Positions 6,938 to 33,109 of a stretch of 33,110 bases of DNA are shown one piece after another; the first letter of the stretch is position 1, and every line of letters begins with the position of its first letter. Below the pieces are notes generated by a model that was not told the DNA's origin, searched no databases, and was given only the letters and a program-made list of their open reading frames with translations. Made by a program: the position numbers and the translations under genes. Where the stretch lies: NCBI GenBank assembly GCA_902500745.1, contig CABVRS010000019.1:1-33110 (forward strand), in the 5' to 3' direction. This DNA is from an uncultured Nitrospira sp. (GTDB lineage: Bacteria; Nitrospirota; Nitrospiria; Nitrospirales; Nitrospiraceae).

Positions 6938-7073
6938 GTGAACGCACCAATGGCTTCCACTCTGATCCAGAACTGCGGCAAAAGCAACTTCAGGTCGAGA
7001 TACCCGCCGAAAGCATGCGCGACGTTCCGTCTTGATCGAGCCTAATGTGAGTACCAGCTTGACGACATAATAC

Positions 7074-7103
7074 TTGACATATGCAATATATTATTGCTAT
7101 CAG
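7074..7103 (+). promoter_or_regulatory. Putative promoter and operator of the XRE-PBP regulator
   Basis: A consensus -35 hexamer TTGACA (7074-7079) lies 18 bases before TATCAG (7098-7103), a weak -10. Between them sits the inverted repeat GCAATA-TAT-TATTGC (7083-7097). A repressor bound there would block the promoter, so autoregulation by the downstream HTH protein is likely. The core AATATATT recurs before the barrel gene at 8310-8317. The element is AT-rich in GC-rich surroundings. Inferred, not demonstrated. Confidence 0.45.
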
Positions 7104-7109
7104 ATCTCC

Positions 7110-8294
7110 ATGGATCTTCCTGCACAGGCCGAGCGACCTCAGCCCCATTATGCTAATCACCTCAGAGTGTTTCGTACGCAAAGAGGCTTCTCTCAGGGAG
7201 AACTCGCCAGTCGGGCGGGGATTACCCGACAGGCTATATCGTCGATTGAGTCGAATCTGTACTTGCCGACGACCGCCGTTGCCCTTCAGTTAGCTTCAGT
7301 ACTGGCGTGCCGCGTTGAAGATCTGTTCAGCCTGACCCCGTCAGAAGAGATCATTGAAGGCACGCTGGTCGGCCGGCTTCCTTCTCAAGGAAAGACACAA
7401 CTTCACTCGATCCGCGTGAAAGTCTCAACCGTGGGCAAACGAACCGTTGTACGACCTGTCAGTGATCTAGGGGACCAACTCTCCTTCGCCGTTCCTGCCG
7501 ACGGATATCTCACCGACACACAGAGCACCTCGCCTGGCGCCACCGTCCGCGTGAAGCTCTCCCGCGATCGTGAGGCGATCCAACAAGAAATCTCCGTGGC
7601 AGGGTGCGATCCGGCGATTTTTCTCCTCGGTGAACACCTGCGGCGACAGAAAGATCAGACGTCTGTCGTAGGCTGGACCATGGGAAGCATGACCGCGCTC
7701 CAGGCCCTACAGCGAGGTGACGTTCATGTTGCCGGTATGCATCTGCGTGATCCGGCGAGCGGTGAATCCAATGTGCCATTCCTCAGACGGTCGCTGAAGG
7801 GATCCGGTTATGAAGTCGTGACCTTCGCAACCTGGGAGGAAGGATTCCTCGTTCGCCCGGGCAATCCACTATCGATTCGCACCGCCGCCGATCTTGCCTA
7901 CCCGACTGTGAGACTGGTCAATCGTGAAAAGGGCTCTGGTGCCAGACTCCTTTTCGATCAACGATTGCAAGCAGCCGGAATCGCGGCGAAGCAAGTTCGA
8001 GGATATGACGACATTGCACTGACGCATTTCGAAGTCGCGAGGACAATTGCGACGGGTCAGGCGGACGTCGGAATTGGGATTCGGTCTGCTGCACAACACT
8101 TCAACCTGGATTTTGTGCCGCTCCAGGCCGCGCGGTACGATCTGGTGGTCCCAAAAGCTTATCTCAAGTCCCACCCCACGCTGACGCGTCTGTTTGAAAC
8201 ACTTGTCAGTCGCCCGTTTCGAGACGAGATCAACGCATTAGGCGGCTATGACACCGGCGAAACCGGAAAGGTGCATCCGCTCCGCTCTGCCTGA
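7110..8294 (+). CDS. XRE-family regulator with PBP-like (molybdate/tungstate-type) sensor domain
   Basis: A 394-aa one-component regulator. The open frame extends to 7074, but that stretch holds the -35 element and operator, so I start at ATG 7110. Residues about 17-70 form an XRE helix-turn-helix (LRVFRTQRGFSQGELASRAG, then ITRQAISSIESNLYLPT). Residues about 165-385 form a PBP-like domain with the family signature VNREKGSGARLLFDQRL, a GYDD.ALTHFEVARTIATG segment and QADVGIGIRSAA. Such HTH-PBP fusions are related to ModE-type and TupR-type oxyanion sensing. Here modABC lies directly downstream, so molybdate or tungstate is the probable ligand. It would bind the operator in its own promoter and perhaps the similar site at 8308-8320. 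Domain calls are firm; the ligand is inferred from context. Confidence 0.88.
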   Translation: MDLPAQAERPQPHYANHLRVFRTQRGFSQGELASRAGITRQAISSIESNLYLPTTAVALQLASVLACRVEDLFSLTPSEEIIEGTLVGRLPSQGKTQLHSIRVKVSTVGKRTVVRPVSDLGDQLSFAVPADGYLTDTQSTSPGATVRVKLSRDREAIQQEISVAGCDPAIFLLGEHLRRQKDQTSVVGWTMGSMTALQALQRGDVHVAGMHLRDPASGESNVPFLRRSLKGSGYEVVTFATWEEGFLVRPGNPLSIRTAADLAYPTVRLVNREKGSGARLLFDQRLQAAGIAAKQVRGYDDIALTHFEVARTIATGQADVGIGIRSAAQHFNLDFVPLQAARYDLVVPKAYLKSHPTLTRLFETLVSRPFRDEINALGGYDTGETGKVHPLRSA

Positions 8295-8307
8295 AATTGA
8301 ACACTCA

Positions 8308-8320
8308 GGAATATATTGCC
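8308..8320. promoter_or_regulatory. Second putative operator, before the barrel-modABC genes
   Basis: GGAATATATTGCC lies in the 31-base gap between the regulator and the barrel gene. Its reverse complement contains GCAATATATT, identical over ten bases to 7083-7092 in the regulator promoter. The core AATATATT is self-complementary, flanked by GG and GCC. This could let the regulator tune the downstream transport genes separately, or it could overlap the ribosome-binding region. Confidence 0.4.
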
Positions 8321-8325
8321 ATGTC

Positions 8326-9855
8326 ATGAGTCAAACCGAAGCGAATAAGAAGGTCGCTATTGTAAGTGCCGCCACCCCGACGATCGCAATGTGGCTTATC
8401 GTTGGAGTGGCCCTGGCCGAGAAGCCATCTGCATGGCCTCCGCCACCGCTGACGGCATATCTCTCCTCTCCATTAGAAATGGCCTCCGGCATCAAGCAAC
8501 GGGCAGATGCCGTGACAGGACAACACTGGATTGAACCGGCCGATGCCGTGCTCATCCGACATCGTGAGCTTGCGTGGAGCAGATACCTACGAAGCGCCGC
8601 GCATCTCCCCGACTGGCTGGATCTCGGTCTCGAACATCGGACCCGTTTTGAATCCTATGACCACCCCTGGCGAACCAGTCAGCACGCTGGGAACGGACAG
8701 AGAGACGCCCAAATCGCGCTTCGATCACGGGTTCGCGTCGGTGTGGGAGGAAACGGTCCCCTGCGATTTCTCTTTGAGGGCCAGGATTCCCGAGCGTATT
8801 TGGACGACACTCCCGGAAGCTTCCGGGATAGCACAACGGTCAACGAATTCGACATCGTGCAGTTGTTCGGGTCAGTGACGATGAACAATGTCTTGGGAAC
8901 CGGATTACGCACTGATTTTCATTTCGGACGGATGACGATGGATTTCGGCCGACGCCGACTGGTCGCACGAAACGATTTTCGGAATACGACCAACGCATTC
9001 GACGGGTTCCATTGGCAGCTCAATCACGGTCAGATCTGGCGATTCAGAGCCTTCATCGTAGAACCGGTTATTCGCGACGAGGTGAGACTCGACACACAGA
9101 GCAGCAAGTCGCTCTTCTGGGGGACCTATGTGGAGAGCCGTCATCTCTCTTGGCTCCAAGCCGAAGCCTACTACCTCGGTTTGAACGATAGGCAAGTGAC
9201 CAATGCGGCAACCCGCCGCACCTACTCCACGTTCGGAGGGCGCTTATATAAAGATCCCACGCCAGGAGAACCGGATTACGAAATGGAGAGTTCCTGGCAG
9301 ATCGGAACACGCGGAGACACGGATCACTTCGCGCATTTTCAGCATGTGGATCTCGGCTACACCTTCAACCTCCCCTGGACACCGCGACTGGTCTTCCACT
9401 ACGACTACGCCAGCGGGGATCGCCAGCCTGGCGATAGCCAAAGCGAAGGCTTCGACACATTGTTCGGAGCTCGCCGATGGGAATACGGGCCGACCGGCAT
9501 CTGGGGTCCGTTTTTTCGGACAAATCTGAGTTCGCCGGGCTGGCGACTCATCGTCACGCCGTCACCGGGCTGGATTCTGCAGGTCAAACACAGGCTCTGG
9601 TACCTGGCCCAGGCGACAGACTCCTTCGGCAGTTCCGGTCTACAAGATCCCACCGGGCAGGCCGGCACCTCCCTCGGACATGACATGGAGCTCCGCGCGC
9701 AGTGGGCACTCAACACGAACTTGGACGTTGATGTCGGATACGTGCACTGGTTTAAAGGATCGTATTTTGATCGTCTCCCCTCCTCCGCCGGTCTACCGGC
9801 AGGAGGGAACAAAGATAGCGATTATGTGTATGTTCAGATGCGCGTCAGGATCTAG
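8326..9855 (+). CDS. Outer-membrane beta-barrel, alginate-export (AlgE-like) family
   Basis: A 509-aa outer-membrane protein. The frame opens at 8248 inside the regulator gene; the likely start is ATG 8326, giving a signal peptide with hydrophobic core (TIAMWLIVGVALAEKP). The mature part has a short N-terminal helical region (IEPADAVLIRHRELAWSRYL) and then barrel strands with the family start LDLGLEHRTRFESYDHPWR. Other strands include RFLFEGQDSRAYLDD, DFHFGRMTMDFGRRRLVARN, PRLVFHYDYASGDR, and the last strand DYVYVQMRVRI ending in an aromatic/hydrophobic pattern. Such AlgE-like porins are widespread in Nitrospira-type bacteria and rarely linked to alginate. Its place between a molybdate-type sensor and modA (9 bases apart) suggests it lets oxyanions cross the outer membrane. 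Family call good; substrate inferred. Confidence 0.85.
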   Translation: MSQTEANKKVAIVSAATPTIAMWLIVGVALAEKPSAWPPPPLTAYLSSPLEMASGIKQRADAVTGQHWIEPADAVLIRHRELAWSRYLRSAAHLPDWLDLGLEHRTRFESYDHPWRTSQHAGNGQRDAQIALRSRVRVGVGGNGPLRFLFEGQDSRAYLDDTPGSFRDSTTVNEFDIVQLFGSVTMNNVLGTGLRTDFHFGRMTMDFGRRRLVARNDFRNTTNAFDGFHWQLNHGQIWRFRAFIVEPVIRDEVRLDTQSSKSLFWGTYVESRHLSWLQAEAYYLGLNDRQVTNAATRRTYSTFGGRLYKDPTPGEPDYEMESSWQIGTRGDTDHFAHFQHVDLGYTFNLPWTPRLVFHYDYASGDRQPGDSQSEGFDTLFGARRWEYGPTGIWGPFFRTNLSSPGWRLIVTPSPGWILQVKHRLWYLAQATDSFGSSGLQDPTGQAGTSLGHDMELRAQWALNTNLDVDVGYVHWFKGSYFDRLPSSAGLPAGGNKDSDYVYVQMRVRI

Positions 9856-9864
9856 GCATTCTGC

Positions 9865-10632
9865 ATGAAACGACTCGTACTCTTCTTCTGCTTGATCATG
9901 ATGCTGACCCCAGACATGGGGCGCACGGAAGAGATCACAATTGCCGCCGCGGCTGATCTGAATTTCGCCTTTAAGGAACTCGTCCCGCAATATGAGCAGA
10001 TGACCGGCCGGCACGTCACCGTCTCGTTTGGATCATCAGGAAACTTTTTCGCACAAATTCAGCACGGCGCCCCTTTCGACCTCTACTTTTCCGCCGATAT
10101 CAATTATCCACACAAATTGGAAGAAGCCGGTTTGACCGTTCCAGGATCACTCTATCGCTATGCGGTGGGGCGGATCGTGCTGTGGGCTCGTCAGGACTCC
10201 CCTCTCAACGTCACACAAGGATTCCCGATACTCCGCCAATCTTCTATCAAAAAGATTGCCATCGCAAACCCCAAACATGCGCCCTACGGCCGGGCGGCAG
10301 TCGCCGCGATGGAATATTTCAACACCTACGACGAAGCCAAAAACCGGTTGGTCCTGGGAGAAAATGTCTCTCAGGCCGCACAGTTCGTTGAGTCCGGGGC
10401 CGCCGATATCGGCATCATTGCACTCTCATTGGCGCTTGCACCCGTCATGAAGAATAAAGGGATGTACTGGGAGATCCCCGCAGAAGCTCATCCGCCGCTC
10501 GAACAAGGAGCCGTGATGCTCAAGTCATCGAGGCATCAAGAATCCGCGAAACGGTTCCTCGAATTCATGAAAAGTCGACCAGGACAGCTCATCATGACGC
10601 GATATGGGTTCACCGTTCCGGAGTCCCGATGA
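9865..10632 (+). CDS. modA: Molybdate ABC transporter, substrate-binding protein
   Basis: A 255-aa periplasmic protein with a signal peptide (MKRLVLFFCLIMMLTPDMGR, cleavage before EEITIAAAADL). The ModA pattern is clear: AAAADLNFAFKELVPQYEQ, then VSFGSSGNFFAQIQHGAPFD, DLYFSADINYPHKLEEAGL, IAIANPKHAPYGRAAVAAME, and the C-terminal FLEFMKSRPGQLIMTRYGF. These form the two lobes that bind molybdate or tungstate through backbone amides and side-chain hydroxyls. Length is normal for the family (about 250). The stop overlaps the ATG of modB (ATGA at 10629-10632), marking an operon. Discrimination between molybdate and tungstate cannot be made from the sequence. Confidence 0.93.
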   Translation: MKRLVLFFCLIMMLTPDMGRTEEITIAAAADLNFAFKELVPQYEQMTGRHVTVSFGSSGNFFAQIQHGAPFDLYFSADINYPHKLEEAGLTVPGSLYRYAVGRIVLWARQDSPLNVTQGFPILRQSSIKKIAIANPKHAPYGRAAVAAMEYFNTYDEAKNRLVLGENVSQAAQFVESGAADIGIIALSLALAPVMKNKGMYWEIPAEAHPPLEQGAVMLKSSRHQESAKRFLEFMKSRPGQLIMTRYGFTVPESR

Positions 10633-11303
10633 ATTGGACAGCCATTGGGGTGACATGCCAACTCGCAAGCCTGACATCGATCGCGTTGCTGGTCATCGGC
10701 CTCCCTATCGCCTATTGGCTGGCCTATTCCACATGGCGTTGGAAGTTTCTTATCGAATCGATCGTGGCCTTGCCGTTGGTGTTACCTCCGACCGTACTGG
10801 GGTTTTACATTCTCGTGGCCATCGGACCACATAGCCCGATCGGGCACTTCTACACACATATCGTCGGGCACCCACTGCCGTTCAGTTTTCAAGGGCTGCT
10901 CCTCGCCTCGATCCTCTATAGCTTGCCCTTTGCCGTTCAGCCCTTCGCCGCCGCCTTCGAACAGGTGGATCGGAAACTGATCGAAGCATCCTGGACACTG
11001 GGGCTGTCCAAACTAACAACCTTCTTTAAACTCATCCTCCCGCTCTCGACAGCTGGACTCATTACAGGTGTCGTACTGAGCTTCGCCCATACGCTTGGCG
11101 AGTTCGGCGTCGTCCTGATGGTGGGAGGCAACATCGAAGGCGTTACGCGTACGGTATCGATCGAGATCTACGACAATGTGCAGGCCCTCGACTATACCGC
11201 AGCGGCAAAGACGTCTGCGTTTCTCCTGGTTGTATCCTATGGGGTGCTGTTGCTGGTCTATGCCGTCAATAGGCGCGTGTGGTCGATATGGCCGCAGAAA
11301 TAG
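10629..11303 (+). CDS. modB: Molybdate ABC transporter, permease
   Basis: A 224-aa inner-membrane permease with about five to six transmembrane segments (for example SIALLVIGLPIAYWLAYST and AFLLVVSYGVLLLVYAVN). The coupling-helix EAA-type loop is EASWTLGLSKLTTFFKLILP at about residues 118-137, which docks on ModC. PLVLPPTVLGFYILVAIG is a typical ModB signature. Length equals E. coli ModB (229 aa). Starts within the modA stop and its end overlaps modC by 25 bases, so translation of the three is coupled. Confidence 0.95.
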   Translation: MNWTAIGVTCQLASLTSIALLVIGLPIAYWLAYSTWRWKFLIESIVALPLVLPPTVLGFYILVAIGPHSPIGHFYTHIVGHPLPFSFQGLLLASILYSLPFAVQPFAAAFEQVDRKLIEASWTLGLSKLTTFFKLILPLSTAGLITGVVLSFAHTLGEFGVVLMVGGNIEGVTRTVSIEIYDNVQALDYTAAAKTSAFLLVVSYGVLLLVYAVNRRVWSIWPQK

Positions 11304-12376
11304 CGTTGAACTTCCAGAAGACCTTTGTCGGTCGGGCTTCCATTACGGCCCAGCTCAGGTGTGCTCTCGATCCGCCCTCTGTCACGATCCTGTTCGGCCC
11401 TTCCGGCTCCGGGAAAACAACAATTCTCCGCTGCTTGGCTGGTCTCGAACAGCCTGAAGAAGGAACCATTTCGGTCGGAGAGGAGCTGTGGTTCGATGCC
11501 GCCAATCGTGTGACGGTTCCTCCACAAGCCCGCCGGCTCGGCTATATGGCGCAAGACTATGCGTTATTCCCCAATTATACCGTGGAAGGGAACATTGCCT
11601 ATGGATTGACCGGCTTATCCGCGCAGGAGAAGAAGGCACGGGTGGACGAAGTTCTTCATCTGTTGCAGATCGAGTCCATGGCTCAACAGAACCCCACTCA
11701 ACTCTCCGGCGGACAACAGCAGCGGGTCGCCCTCGCCCGTGCGATCGCTCGACGGCCCCGACTGTTGCTGCTTGATGAGCCATTGTCAGCACTCGATACA
11801 CCGATGAGGGCTCGGCTATGCAAAGACTTGCGCACACTTCTCACACAACTAGCCATTCCCTCCGTCGTAGTGACACATGACTGGACCGAAGCGCTCGTGC
11901 TTGGTGACCACATGGCCGTGATCGATAACGGACGTATGCTGCAGACAGGTACGCCGCAGGACGTGTTTAGCCGGCCCATCAATGCCGAGGTCGCGCACGT
12001 GGTCGGGATCGAAACGGTTGTCCAAGGAACCATCACGGAGGTGCGAGATGAGTTGGCGACGGTTCAAATCGGCACCGTCACGGTAACAGCTCTCGCGTCG
12101 CCACACTTCGGACCCGATGTGTTCGTCTGTCTCCGAGCCGAAGATGTAACGCTTGAACTGACCGGCTCTGCGGACACAAGCGCCCGCAATCACCTGAAGG
12201 GAACCGTACAAACCATCATATCACTGGGCGCCCTTGTGCAAGTGACTCTCGACTGCGGATTTCTTCTGACCGCTCTGATTACACAATCAGCACTGCGAGA
12301 GCTGAACCTGCGCCTCGGCAGCGCTATACGGGCTGCGTTCAAAGCGGGCGCTGTGCATCTCATTCCACGCCGCTAA
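11279..12376 (+). CDS. modC: Molybdate ABC transporter, ATP-binding protein
   Basis: A 365-aa ATPase, taken from GTG 11279; an ATG three codons later (11288) is equally possible. Walker A GPSGSGKTT is at residues 40-48, the Q-loop at Gln92 (YMAQDYALFP), the ABC signature LSGGQQQRVALARA from residue 142, Walker B RLLLLDEPLSALD at 161-173 with catalytic Glu167, and the H-loop in VVVTHD. The C-terminal part (about 235-360) has two TOBE/MOP-like stretches, for example NHLKGTVQTIISLGALVQV, which bind oxyanion in ModC regulatory domains. It overlaps modB by 25 bases and ends the operon; the next gene is 284 bases away. Confidence 0.94.
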   Translation: MVDMAAEIALNFQKTFVGRASITAQLRCALDPPSVTILFGPSGSGKTTILRCLAGLEQPEEGTISVGEELWFDAANRVTVPPQARRLGYMAQDYALFPNYTVEGNIAYGLTGLSAQEKKARVDEVLHLLQIESMAQQNPTQLSGGQQQRVALARAIARRPRLLLLDEPLSALDTPMRARLCKDLRTLLTQLAIPSVVVTHDWTEALVLGDHMAVIDNGRMLQTGTPQDVFSRPINAEVAHVVGIETVVQGTITEVRDELATVQIGTVTVTALASPHFGPDVFVCLRAEDVTLELTGSADTSARNHLKGTVQTIISLGALVQVTLDCGFLLTALITQSALRELNLRLGSAIRAAFKAGAVHLIPRR

Positions 12377-12432: not shown

Positions 12433-12660
12433 GGCTGTGAACTTGCTTCTCTCCAGCGTATGAATGATCGACATACATGGACGGCGAGCGTTCTGCCTAG
12501 TTTTTAGTCATTGCGCCAAGTCAACCGTGAGGCACCATATCGTGTGTCGTGCAGTTATCGTAAATATTTCCACCACGTTGAATGGGTTCTGTAAAAATAC
12601 GCTCGAGTATCTGTCTCGCTCTTGACTGGAAGAAATAAGCATGATACCAATGGTTACATC

Positions 12661-13206
12661 ATGAAGCCTCAAGACATCAAACGCTGTCGAGAAGAATTGG
12701 GCCTCACACAGCAACAACTGGCCGAGGCACTCCACACTACTCGCGTATCCGTGGCGCGTTATGAGGCCGGCATGCGGAAAATTCCCGGTGTTGTGTCGGT
12801 CGTACTCGATCAATTACGACGGAAGACCGAGATTCCCATGGCCGGCCTCGTGGCGGCCGGCTCCCCAATTGACCCGATTCCGCAATCGGAACTCGTGGAT
12901 GTCCCCCCGAGCATGTTGCGTGGAGGAGAGACCTTCGCCCTCAAGGTCAAGGGAGAATCCATGAAGGATGAAGGAATCTTGCCGGGCGATGTGGTGGTGG
13001 TGCGAAAACAGGAAACGGCCAAGAACGGACAAACCGTCGTCGCACTGGTCAATCGTGAAGCGACGATCAAGACATACTTCAAAAAAGGGACACATATTGA
13101 ACTGCATCCGGCCAACGAGACGATGCAGCCGATCATCGTCCAACCATCGGACGAATTTCATATCGAAGGGCTCGTCATCGGCGTCATTCGACATTGCGCC
13201 GTCTAG
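12661..13206 (+). CDS. LexA-like S24-family self-cleaving repressor with XRE-type HTH
   Basis: A 181-aa protein. The frame is open to 12622, but ATG 12661 gives the natural HTH start. Residues 1-55 are an XRE helix-turn-helix (KRCREELGLTQQQLAEALHT, then RVSVARYEAG). Residues about 58-180 are the S24/LexA peptidase domain. The scissile site looks like Ala66-Gly67 in GLVAAGSPI, the catalytic serine is Ser100 in KVKGESMKDEGI, and the lysine is Lys137 in REATIK. All parts of the self-cleavage machinery are therefore present. True LexA has a winged HTH, so this is closer to phage CI/HdiR-type repressors in its head. It may be the SOS regulator of this lineage or a prophage-like or stress repressor. 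Downstream small genes start 23 bases later and may be co-regulated. Confidence 0.88.
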   Translation: MKPQDIKRCREELGLTQQQLAEALHTTRVSVARYEAGMRKIPGVVSVVLDQLRRKTEIPMAGLVAAGSPIDPIPQSELVDVPPSMLRGGETFALKVKGESMKDEGILPGDVVVVRKQETAKNGQTVVALVNREATIKTYFKKGTHIELHPANETMQPIIVQPSDEFHIEGLVIGVIRHCAV

Positions 13207-23671: not shown

Positions 23672-24864
23672 ACGTCCTCCATCGAATGAGCGAGGTCCCT
23701 CTGTATCGCGGGTAACGTGATGATCACACTCGTCCCGCGACCGATCTCACTCGTCAGGGCCAAGCTCCCACCATGAGCCAGTACGGTTTCGCGACTCAAG
23801 AATAGTCCTAAGCCGGTCCCCTTTCCAATCGCTTTGGTCGTAAAAAACGGCTCAAAGGCTTTTTGCGTATCCGCTTCCGGCATCCCGCATCCTGTATCCT
23901 GAACCGCAAGGGTGAGCACCAGTGGAGGCATTCGGCCAGCGACCGTTGCGCCACGCTCTTGTTCTTCTGCCGTCGCATCGCGAGCTGCGGCAGAAATCGT
24001 GACCGCCCCCCCTAGAGGAGTCGCCGCCAGTGCATTGGCCAGGATATTCACCAAGACCTGATGCATCTTTTCTTTATCGGCCCAGACCAGCGGCAAACCG
24101 AGAGGAATCTGAACCGTCAATGAAATCCCTTTTGCGTGAAAGGCCGGCTCCATCAAGGTGGCAGCCGGACTGACGACGTCCTGTACCACCAGCCATTGAG
24201 GAGCCGGTTGGCGCTGCCGAGTGGAGGACAGCAAGTCCTGAATGATATTCACGACCCGAGTCAGTTGTTCATCGATAATCGCGATCCGCTTCTTCATGTC
24301 CGGGGTCACCCCAGGTTCTTCTTCCAGCGCCTGGACATGCCAGGCGATCGAGTGAAGTGGTGTCCCCACCTCATGGGCGACAGACGCGACCAGCTGTCCG
24401 ACGGCGGCTAACCGTTCCGACCGATTCAATTGATCTTTTGCCTGAACCAGTTGGGTATTGGCCTTGAGCAAACTTTCTGTTTCCTGGGCCAGAGCCGCAC
24501 GGGCGGCTTCTTCGCGTGCCTTCCGCTCTTCCCAACTCACACCCAAATACGCAACCAACAGCAAGACGCCGACCACGACGCTCCGATTGATGACGGCGGC
24601 TTGAAATCGCCCTGGCTTCGTCGGCTGGAGCAGCCCTGAATAGGTAGCGACCACACAGGCCAACACGGTCACCAACATGACGGTGCGATTACGCAGAGTC
24701 GTGACCAACAAGATCGGCAACACATACCCATAGGCGCCGACTACGTTGGCCGGGGAAAATTGTTCAATGACCAGGATAATGAGAAAACAGGCCCCAGCAA
24801 CCCCGAGCGCCAAACGGTCGCGAGGCGTCAGCGCGATCATAGACCCACGCCGCTCCGACGGCAT
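23668..24864 (-). CDS. Membrane sensor histidine kinase (NtrB-like partner)
   Basis: A 398-aa kinase. About four transmembrane segments cover residues 18-110 (for example [19 protein letters not shown] and [15 protein letters not shown]) with little periplasmic loop, then a coiled coil (115-150). The HisKA box has the phospho-His at residue 164 ([13 protein letters not shown]). The catalytic domain shows the N box ([11 protein letters not shown], 273-282), DTGCGMP (323-329), FEPFFTTK and GTGLGLFLS (G2). The lack of a large sensor domain suggests that it senses the membrane itself or a partner protein. It ends with a 4-base overlap into the NtrC-type gene. It lies 55 bases after malQ on the same strand. 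Confidence 0.94.
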
Positions 24865-32355: not shown

Positions 32356-33109
32356 GTTTCAATCCTCGCCCGCCCCGAAGGACGGGCGCTACACGACATG
32401 AGCTTGCGGCTTCCGCTCAACATAGGTGTTTCAATCCTCGCCCGCCCCGAAGGACGGGCGCTACTGCGTACCGCTCACCACAGGGCAAGGCACATTTAGT
32501 TTCAATCCTCGCCCGCCCCGAAGGACGGGCGCTACTCAACGAGTTCGGCCGTGGCGTGGGCTACACCCGGTTTCAATCCTCGCCCGCCCCGAAGGACGGG
32601 CGCTACATTTGTGGAGCGTTGCGAAGAGGGTACGAAAGACGTTTCAATCCTCGCCCGCCCCGAAGGACGGGCGCTACTATTTTTGTGGGCGTGATGACTT
32701 GGCACATACAAGTTTCAATCCTCGCCCGCCCCGAAGGACGGGCGCTACAGAACGGTATTGGCCAGGTCAGCACAGTTGCGCTGTTTCAATCCTCGCCCGC
32801 CCCGAAGGACGGGCGCTACCTCCCCTTTTGCTCTCCGTATTCCCCAACGAGGAAGTTTCAATCCTCGCCCGCCCCGAAGGACGGGCGCTACGTCTCTGCT
32901 CTCGACGACCGAATATGAGATACGGAGTTTCAATCCTCGCCCGCCCCGAAGGACGGGCGCTACTGGCGAGGGCATGCGTGATATGGGCCAAGGCGTCGGG
33001 TTTCAATCCTCGCCCGCCCCGAAGGACGGGCGCTACTGGCGAGGGCATGCGTGATATGGGCCAAGGCGTCGGGTTTCAATCCTCGCCCGCCCCGAAGGAC
33101 GGGCGCTAC
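32356..33109 (-). CRISPR. CRISPR array, 11 perfect 37-base repeats, continuing past the window
   Basis: Repeats on the plus strand begin GTTTCAATCC and end GGACGGGCGCTAC, 37 bases, identical at 32356, 32428, 32499, 32570, 32641, 32712, 32783, 32855, 32927, 33000 and 33073. Ten spacers of 34-36 bases lie between them, plus one before the first perfect repeat. Read on the minus strand, the repeat ends ATTGAAAC, the usual 5' handle of crRNAs, and has a 9-bp stem with a UUCG loop and an 11-base tail. The spacers at 32964-32999 and 33037-33072 are identical. No cas gene is in the window, so the subtype is open; the handle resembles I-C and some type III repeats, but 37 bases is longer than the usual I-C repeat. 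Confidence 0.97.

Follow-up and report, generated by a model that had tools for sequence, protein, structure and literature searches.

We consider it probable that positions 7067-7103 of the window (the whole stretch of 33,110 nucleotides from an uncultured Nitrospira sp. analysed here) form a σ70-type promoter combined with an operator for the very regulator that this promoter transcribes, one site serving the whole operon, and that chance accounts for the ten-base match to GCAATATATT at 8310-8319. The operon lies on the plus strand and consists of the regulator (7110-8294, with HTH_3 and PBP_like domains and an ATG 6 nt past the -10 hexamer), an outer-membrane barrel of the Alginate_exp family (8326-9855), and the genes modA (molybdate-binding protein, 9865-10632), modB (permease, 10629-11303) and modC (ATP-binding protein with a TOBE domain, 11279-12376), of which modA and modB score above the cut-offs of TIGR01256 and TIGR02141, respectively, and modC just under that of TIGR02142. 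Since the regulator precedes both the barrel and modABC, the operon is likely to have a lone autoregulatory site ahead of it. A first-pass annotation had taken GCAATATATT, which it saw in the regulator promoter and again in the gap before the barrel gene, for a candidate operator; most likely, the predicted operator-promoter is real and conserved, the wrong repeat was chosen within it, and the second site is coincidental.

When considered across orthologous loci, the regulator promoters share a gapless element with the consensus TATAATTGACATATGACAAGTATAATTGCTATAC, composed of a -35 hexamer (TTGACA, 7074-7079, plus strand) that doubles as a left TTG half-site, a spacer of 18 bp, and a TTGC half-site running into an extended -10 (TGC-TATCAG; together 7094-7103, plus strand, hexamer at 7098-7103), with a dyad lying over the -35 and the spacer (7067-7094). 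Upstream regions of 89 of the 90 loci were scanned with a matrix extended from a manually entered seed, L007 being excluded because it has almost no upstream sequence, and 75 of the 89 promoters reached at least 20 bits; the 14 below that value belong mostly to distant relatives and are left out of all counts on 75 sites. The gap-free alignment A1 holds 61 of the 74 unique sites, the other 13, mostly weak, having been omitted by hand without a strict rule, and A3 holds 64 of 79 sequences, the window included. Measured against flank composition in 73 sequences, the information per column amounts to 0.06 bits in the upstream flank, 1.60 in the -35, 0.64 in the spacer, 0.68 in the right arm, 1.20 in the extended -10 and 0.20 after the -10; conservation is confined to the element, with low flanks, and the -35 and extended -10 are its best-conserved columns. 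A leave-one-out matrix gives 42.2 bits at 7069-7102, and no other place in the window scores above -3.7. With the dyad part alone, a single modest match (8.7 bits) is found elsewhere in the window, at 24755-24778.

Because RNA polymerase also needs the -35 and -10 arms, the operator is argued by the spacer and the symmetry only. The primary dyad, ATAATACTTGACATATGCAATATATTAT (7067-7094), stands in register in the orthologous promoters, and 10 of its 14 pairs are complementary in the window, compared with 12 in L002 and L004, 10 in L003, 9 in L006 and 8 in L005; in the consensus, 10 of 12 pairs are complementary. The 75 sites have on average 8.25 of 14 pairs complementary, compared with 3.92 in 3586 overlapping windows of the upstream flanks, and at least 10 of 14 pairs are reached by 23 of the 75 sites but by 0.08% of the flank windows. 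Two dyad axes, 10 bp apart, stand out: one passes through TTGACAT|ATGNCAA (0.58 of pairs complementary) and the other separates CAA from the TTGC at the -10 (0.51), the next full axes reaching 0.43 and 0.41. Judged by sequence, the outer half-sites, left and right, are inseparable from the contacts of RNA polymerase, and the middle one is separable. In the window, the right half-site of the dyad is degenerate, its GCAA standing one base out of register. A more speculative picture, which we put forward tentatively and hold to be somewhat doubtful, would be an operator of three half-sites (TTG.. / ..CAA / TTG..), equivalent to two dyads one helical turn apart and merged, within about 45 bp, with the -35, the extended -10 and the start codon of a leaderless message; such an operator would be the sole strong target of a Nitrospira-wide oxyanion sensor of Cro/C1 plus PBP_like architecture, the middle half-site having slipped by one base in the lineage of the window.

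The repeat singled out by the first-pass annotation, GCAATA-TAT-TATTGC (GCAATATATTATTGC), does occupy 7083-7097, and GCAATATATT is present letter for letter at 7083-7092 (plus strand) as well as at 8310-8319 (minus strand). Its proposal that the first of these sites is an operator of the regulator holds insofar as the site falls within the deeply conserved promoter/operator element, but the conserved dyad is another one, centred between 7080 and 7081, and the centre of the annotated repeat is at 7090, its axis half a base pair off the secondary dyad. The exact 15-mer is lineage-specific, occurring at one of the 75 promoter sites, namely that of the window; GCAA in the same register with TTGC is found in four of the 74 unique sites (L001, L029, L033, L077). 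Of 90 loci, 11 carry AATATATT in their promoter region and two carry GCAATATATT there, either strand being counted. This rarity in orthologous promoters rules out the motif as a conserved unit, and the repeat is best read, from the comparison of these promoters, as a drift of the middle half-site in the window's lineage.

As for the second site, the gap between the regulator stop and the ATG at 8326 does measure 31 bases (8295-8325), but the motif is not retained there in orthologous loci: of 90 loci examined for AATATATT over the 200 nt that follow the regulator stop (just 136 nt in L026), the window alone contains it. A matrix built without the window's own site yields at best -18.6 bits in the gap compared with the 42.2 at the promoter, and the dyad part alone -3.5 compared with 29.3, so that a second operator in the gap is rejected for the window. 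At the corresponding place the closest relative, L002, whose regulator is 88% identical, reads GACATGTTGCC, L005 and L006 read CCCATGTTGCG, and the other relatives with the same short gap have quite different letters. Another candidate, TTGACTCATGACA (minus strand, across the barrel start), was likewise discarded, its letters differing in L005 and L006 and its dyad score being -3.5. The co-occurrence of the two matches had been called unlikely by chance, which is nominally true of this pair: in dinucleotide shuffles (2000 trials for each of three choices of the promoter region), a stretch of at least 10 bases was shared by promoter region and gap, on either strand, in 0.35%, 0.6% and 0.8% of trials, making a second look at the gap reasonable; the pair was, however, chosen after the fact. 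A one-mismatch copy of GCAATATATT overlaps the second site at 8308-8317 (plus strand), and at least three matches with no more than one mismatch occurred in 4 of 100 shuffles of the window. The 2.66-Mb genome contains six copies of GCAATATATT, the four remaining ones lying inside open frames without a visible molybdenum link, and the match at 8310-8319 is most likely coincidental in this genome.

The second site adjoins an AGGA (8307-8310), 15 nt before the ATG at 8326 and 10 nt before the ATG at 8321 of a two-codon frame; this AGGA is a possible, though distant, ribosome-binding site for the barrel. The two-codon frame itself (ATG-TCA-TGA, 8321-8329) overlaps the barrel start codon (ATGTCATGA), with identical letters in L002, L005 and L006, and translational coupling and chance are both possible explanations for it.

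Targets of the regulator beyond its own promoter were searched with a sequence-only model made from 61 sites. In the window's genome, this model gives two matches, a strong one (E 1.2e-7) and a weak one (E 0.09), the latter in a glyQ-like promoter. The genus search covered 79 genomes and scored no more than 83 first-look candidates in each, under stricter filters, so that weak sites elsewhere may escape; 69 of the genomes have a match at E≤0.3. At E≤0.01 there are 75 matches, 60 of which (from 59 genomes) precede a listed regulator and share its strand; eight are on the opposite strand at the same places, as expected of a palindrome. The remaining seven fall at six places: at three, a regulator match follows immediately (one of these places accounting for two matches), and the other three are at contig ends, where tblastn for the regulator gave no match and the first codons resemble by eye the regulator start. 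The strong matches in the genus are thus all at this regulator's gene or its apparent start. Because the model was built from these promoters, matches at its source sites are partly so by construction, and it is the lack of further strong sites that carries information. Eleven places were inspected among the weaker matches (E 0.01-0.3). Nine of them (L121-L125, L127, L129-L131) are glyQ-like promoters, in which -35, spacer and extended -10 look conserved by eye and behind which lies a gene whose product we take to be glycyl-tRNA synthetase alpha. The other two are L126, where a match around position 1500 (E 0.22) stands ahead of what appears by eye to be a broken second copy of the regulator, and L128, with a weak match that lacks an explanation.

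Thirteen of the 80 named loci have a match above 7 bits at over 100 nt ahead of the regulator, 11 of them on the minus strand, and several look like a divergent promoter; in L141, L143, L149, L154, L169 and L181, promoter-like sequence is seen on the minus strand about 160-170 nt upstream, and L143, L154 and L181 carry TTGTTGACAA, perhaps the site of another factor. Downstream, dyad matches above 9 bits were found 1.1-6.5 kb past the regulator start in 12 of the 80 loci, part of which are chance at that threshold. In five of these 12 (L180, L195, L202, L203, L215), the matches on the two strands almost coincide, as in a palindrome, about 1.4-2.3 kb past the regulator start. A barrel match is absent from all five, and these distant relatives, as opposed to the window, may have a second operator or regulated promoter inside the operon.

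If the element were just a strong and conserved σ70 promoter with an extended -10, used without a specific factor, its best-conserved columns would be expected where they are, in the -35 and the extended -10, and the glyQ-like promoter, likewise conserved through its spacer, makes clear that conservation alone is no proof of an operator. This reading is nevertheless unlikely in view of the dyad in the spacer, the eight opposite-strand matches of the model at the same places and the palindromic copies elsewhere in the five distant operons. Binding of the dyad by a factor other than the adjacently encoded regulator is a further alternative, but the fact that the E≤0.01 matches in the genus sit at this regulator's gene or its apparent start renders it very unlikely. 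As to GCAATATATT being the operator at both places, with separate auto- and operon control, the exact ten-base match in each (nominal chance below 1%) and the palindromic matches within the operons of the five distant relatives can be cited for it, yet with a second site present in one of 90 loci, a closest relative that reads differently there and negative scores in the gap for both the full matrix and its dyad part, we regard it as highly improbable.

According to the reading that we prefer, a promoter-operator under the control of its own gene product, a dimer of the Cro/C1-type regulator would occupy the dyad that spans -35 and spacer and so exclude RNA polymerase, and its PBP_like domain would sense an oxyanion, most likely molybdate or tungstate (molybdate being suggested by the operon), and thereby switch binding. 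Transcription would start at or beside the ATG at 7110, and the transcript would continue through the barrel and modABC, placing the whole operon under a single site. At 71 of the 75 sites, 5-10 nt separate the -10 hexamer from the first in-frame ATG (0 nt in three, and no such ATG in one), and AGGA, GGAG, GAGG or AAGG precedes the ATG in one of 74, counted at regulator promoters only. Given the usual distance between the -10 and the transcription start, the regulator mRNA is probably leaderless.

Of 175 genomes belonging to the family, 151 encode an orthologue of the regulator, and the 80 named loci obtained by genome search are assigned to Nitrospira, Nitrospiraceae, Nitrospirae or Nitrospirota. 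Two gene orders are met: regulator-barrel-modABC, as in the window, and that of N. defluvii, in which the regulator is followed by an SBP_bac_11 protein, a protein without a Pfam hit, a Porin_O_P porin and modABC; the order in N. moscoviensis is similar to the latter. A barrel match is present in 40 of the 80 loci, within 200 nt of the regulator in 38, and a modA match lies downstream on the same strand in 69, the remaining 11 holding less than 2.5 kb of downstream sequence. The regulator combines a Cro/C1-type helix-turn-helix (matching HTH_3, HTH_31, HTH_26 and HTH_19 at E≤0.001) with a PBP_like sensor (PF12727, E 1.1e-63, residues 175-362). Its predicted structure (mean pLDDT 85.4, pTM 0.77) resembles many periplasmic-binding-protein folds, including those of ModA and phosphate-binding proteins, as well as LysR-type effector domains, matches that fit an oxyanion as the ligand without naming which. 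Nitrospira needs molybdenum for its nitrite oxidoreductase, and with a well-defined predicted site common to dozens of species, it can be tested directly how nitrite oxidisers control molybdate uptake, with the proposed motif corrected ahead of tests on the wrong site.

The closest known regulators, with comparable jobs, are TaoR and ModE. TaoR itself has an excisionase-type helix-turn-helix. The TaoR family is described as combining a helix-turn-helix with a PBP_like sensor (Rajeev et al. 2019, Environ Microbiol 21:784, via PMC11980592, PMC10102598), and thus shares with the window's regulator the sensor domain (PF12727) and the link to molybdate/tungstate transport, modA being downstream here in the 69 loci given above. 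TaoR-like proteins are ascribed there a type 17 helix-turn-helix (PMC11980592), in contrast to the Cro/C1 HTH_3 found here, where HTH_17 gave no match at E≤0.001, so that the likeness lies in the sensor domain and not in the helix-turn-helix type. ModE (PMC545781) regulates modABC from a site ahead of the mod operon, as proposed here; however, it has its own helix-turn-helix and molybdate-binding (TOBE) domains, neither of which was found in the window's regulator (TOBE: no match at E≤0.001), and its E. coli-type site, ATCGNTATATA-N6-TATATANCGAT, differs by eye from the consensus of the element. The portions consulted of the literature searched (including PMC545781, PMC7291052, PMC10783764, PMC11980592, PMC6147048, PMC10102598 and PMC11733289) contain no description of this regulator and operator in Nitrospira, nor of any molybdate regulator for the genus. 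A related DNA-binding domain occurs in the small Cro/C1-type repressor CylR2 (PDB 2xiu and 1utx, E 1e-8 and 2.5e-7), whose 66-residue chains, unlike the window's regulator, carry no sensor domain. A dyad overlapping the promoter of the repressor's own gene is known from autoregulated Cro/C1-type repressors and is also present here, where the regulator would presumably act by repression too.

Elsewhere in the window, a regulator with a LexA-like helix-turn-helix and a peptidase S24 domain is encoded directly past modC (12622-13206), and at the window's end (32556-33054) a short motif is repeated in overlapping-frame translations (FQSSPAPKDGRY / SARPSGRARIET), resembling a CRISPR array.
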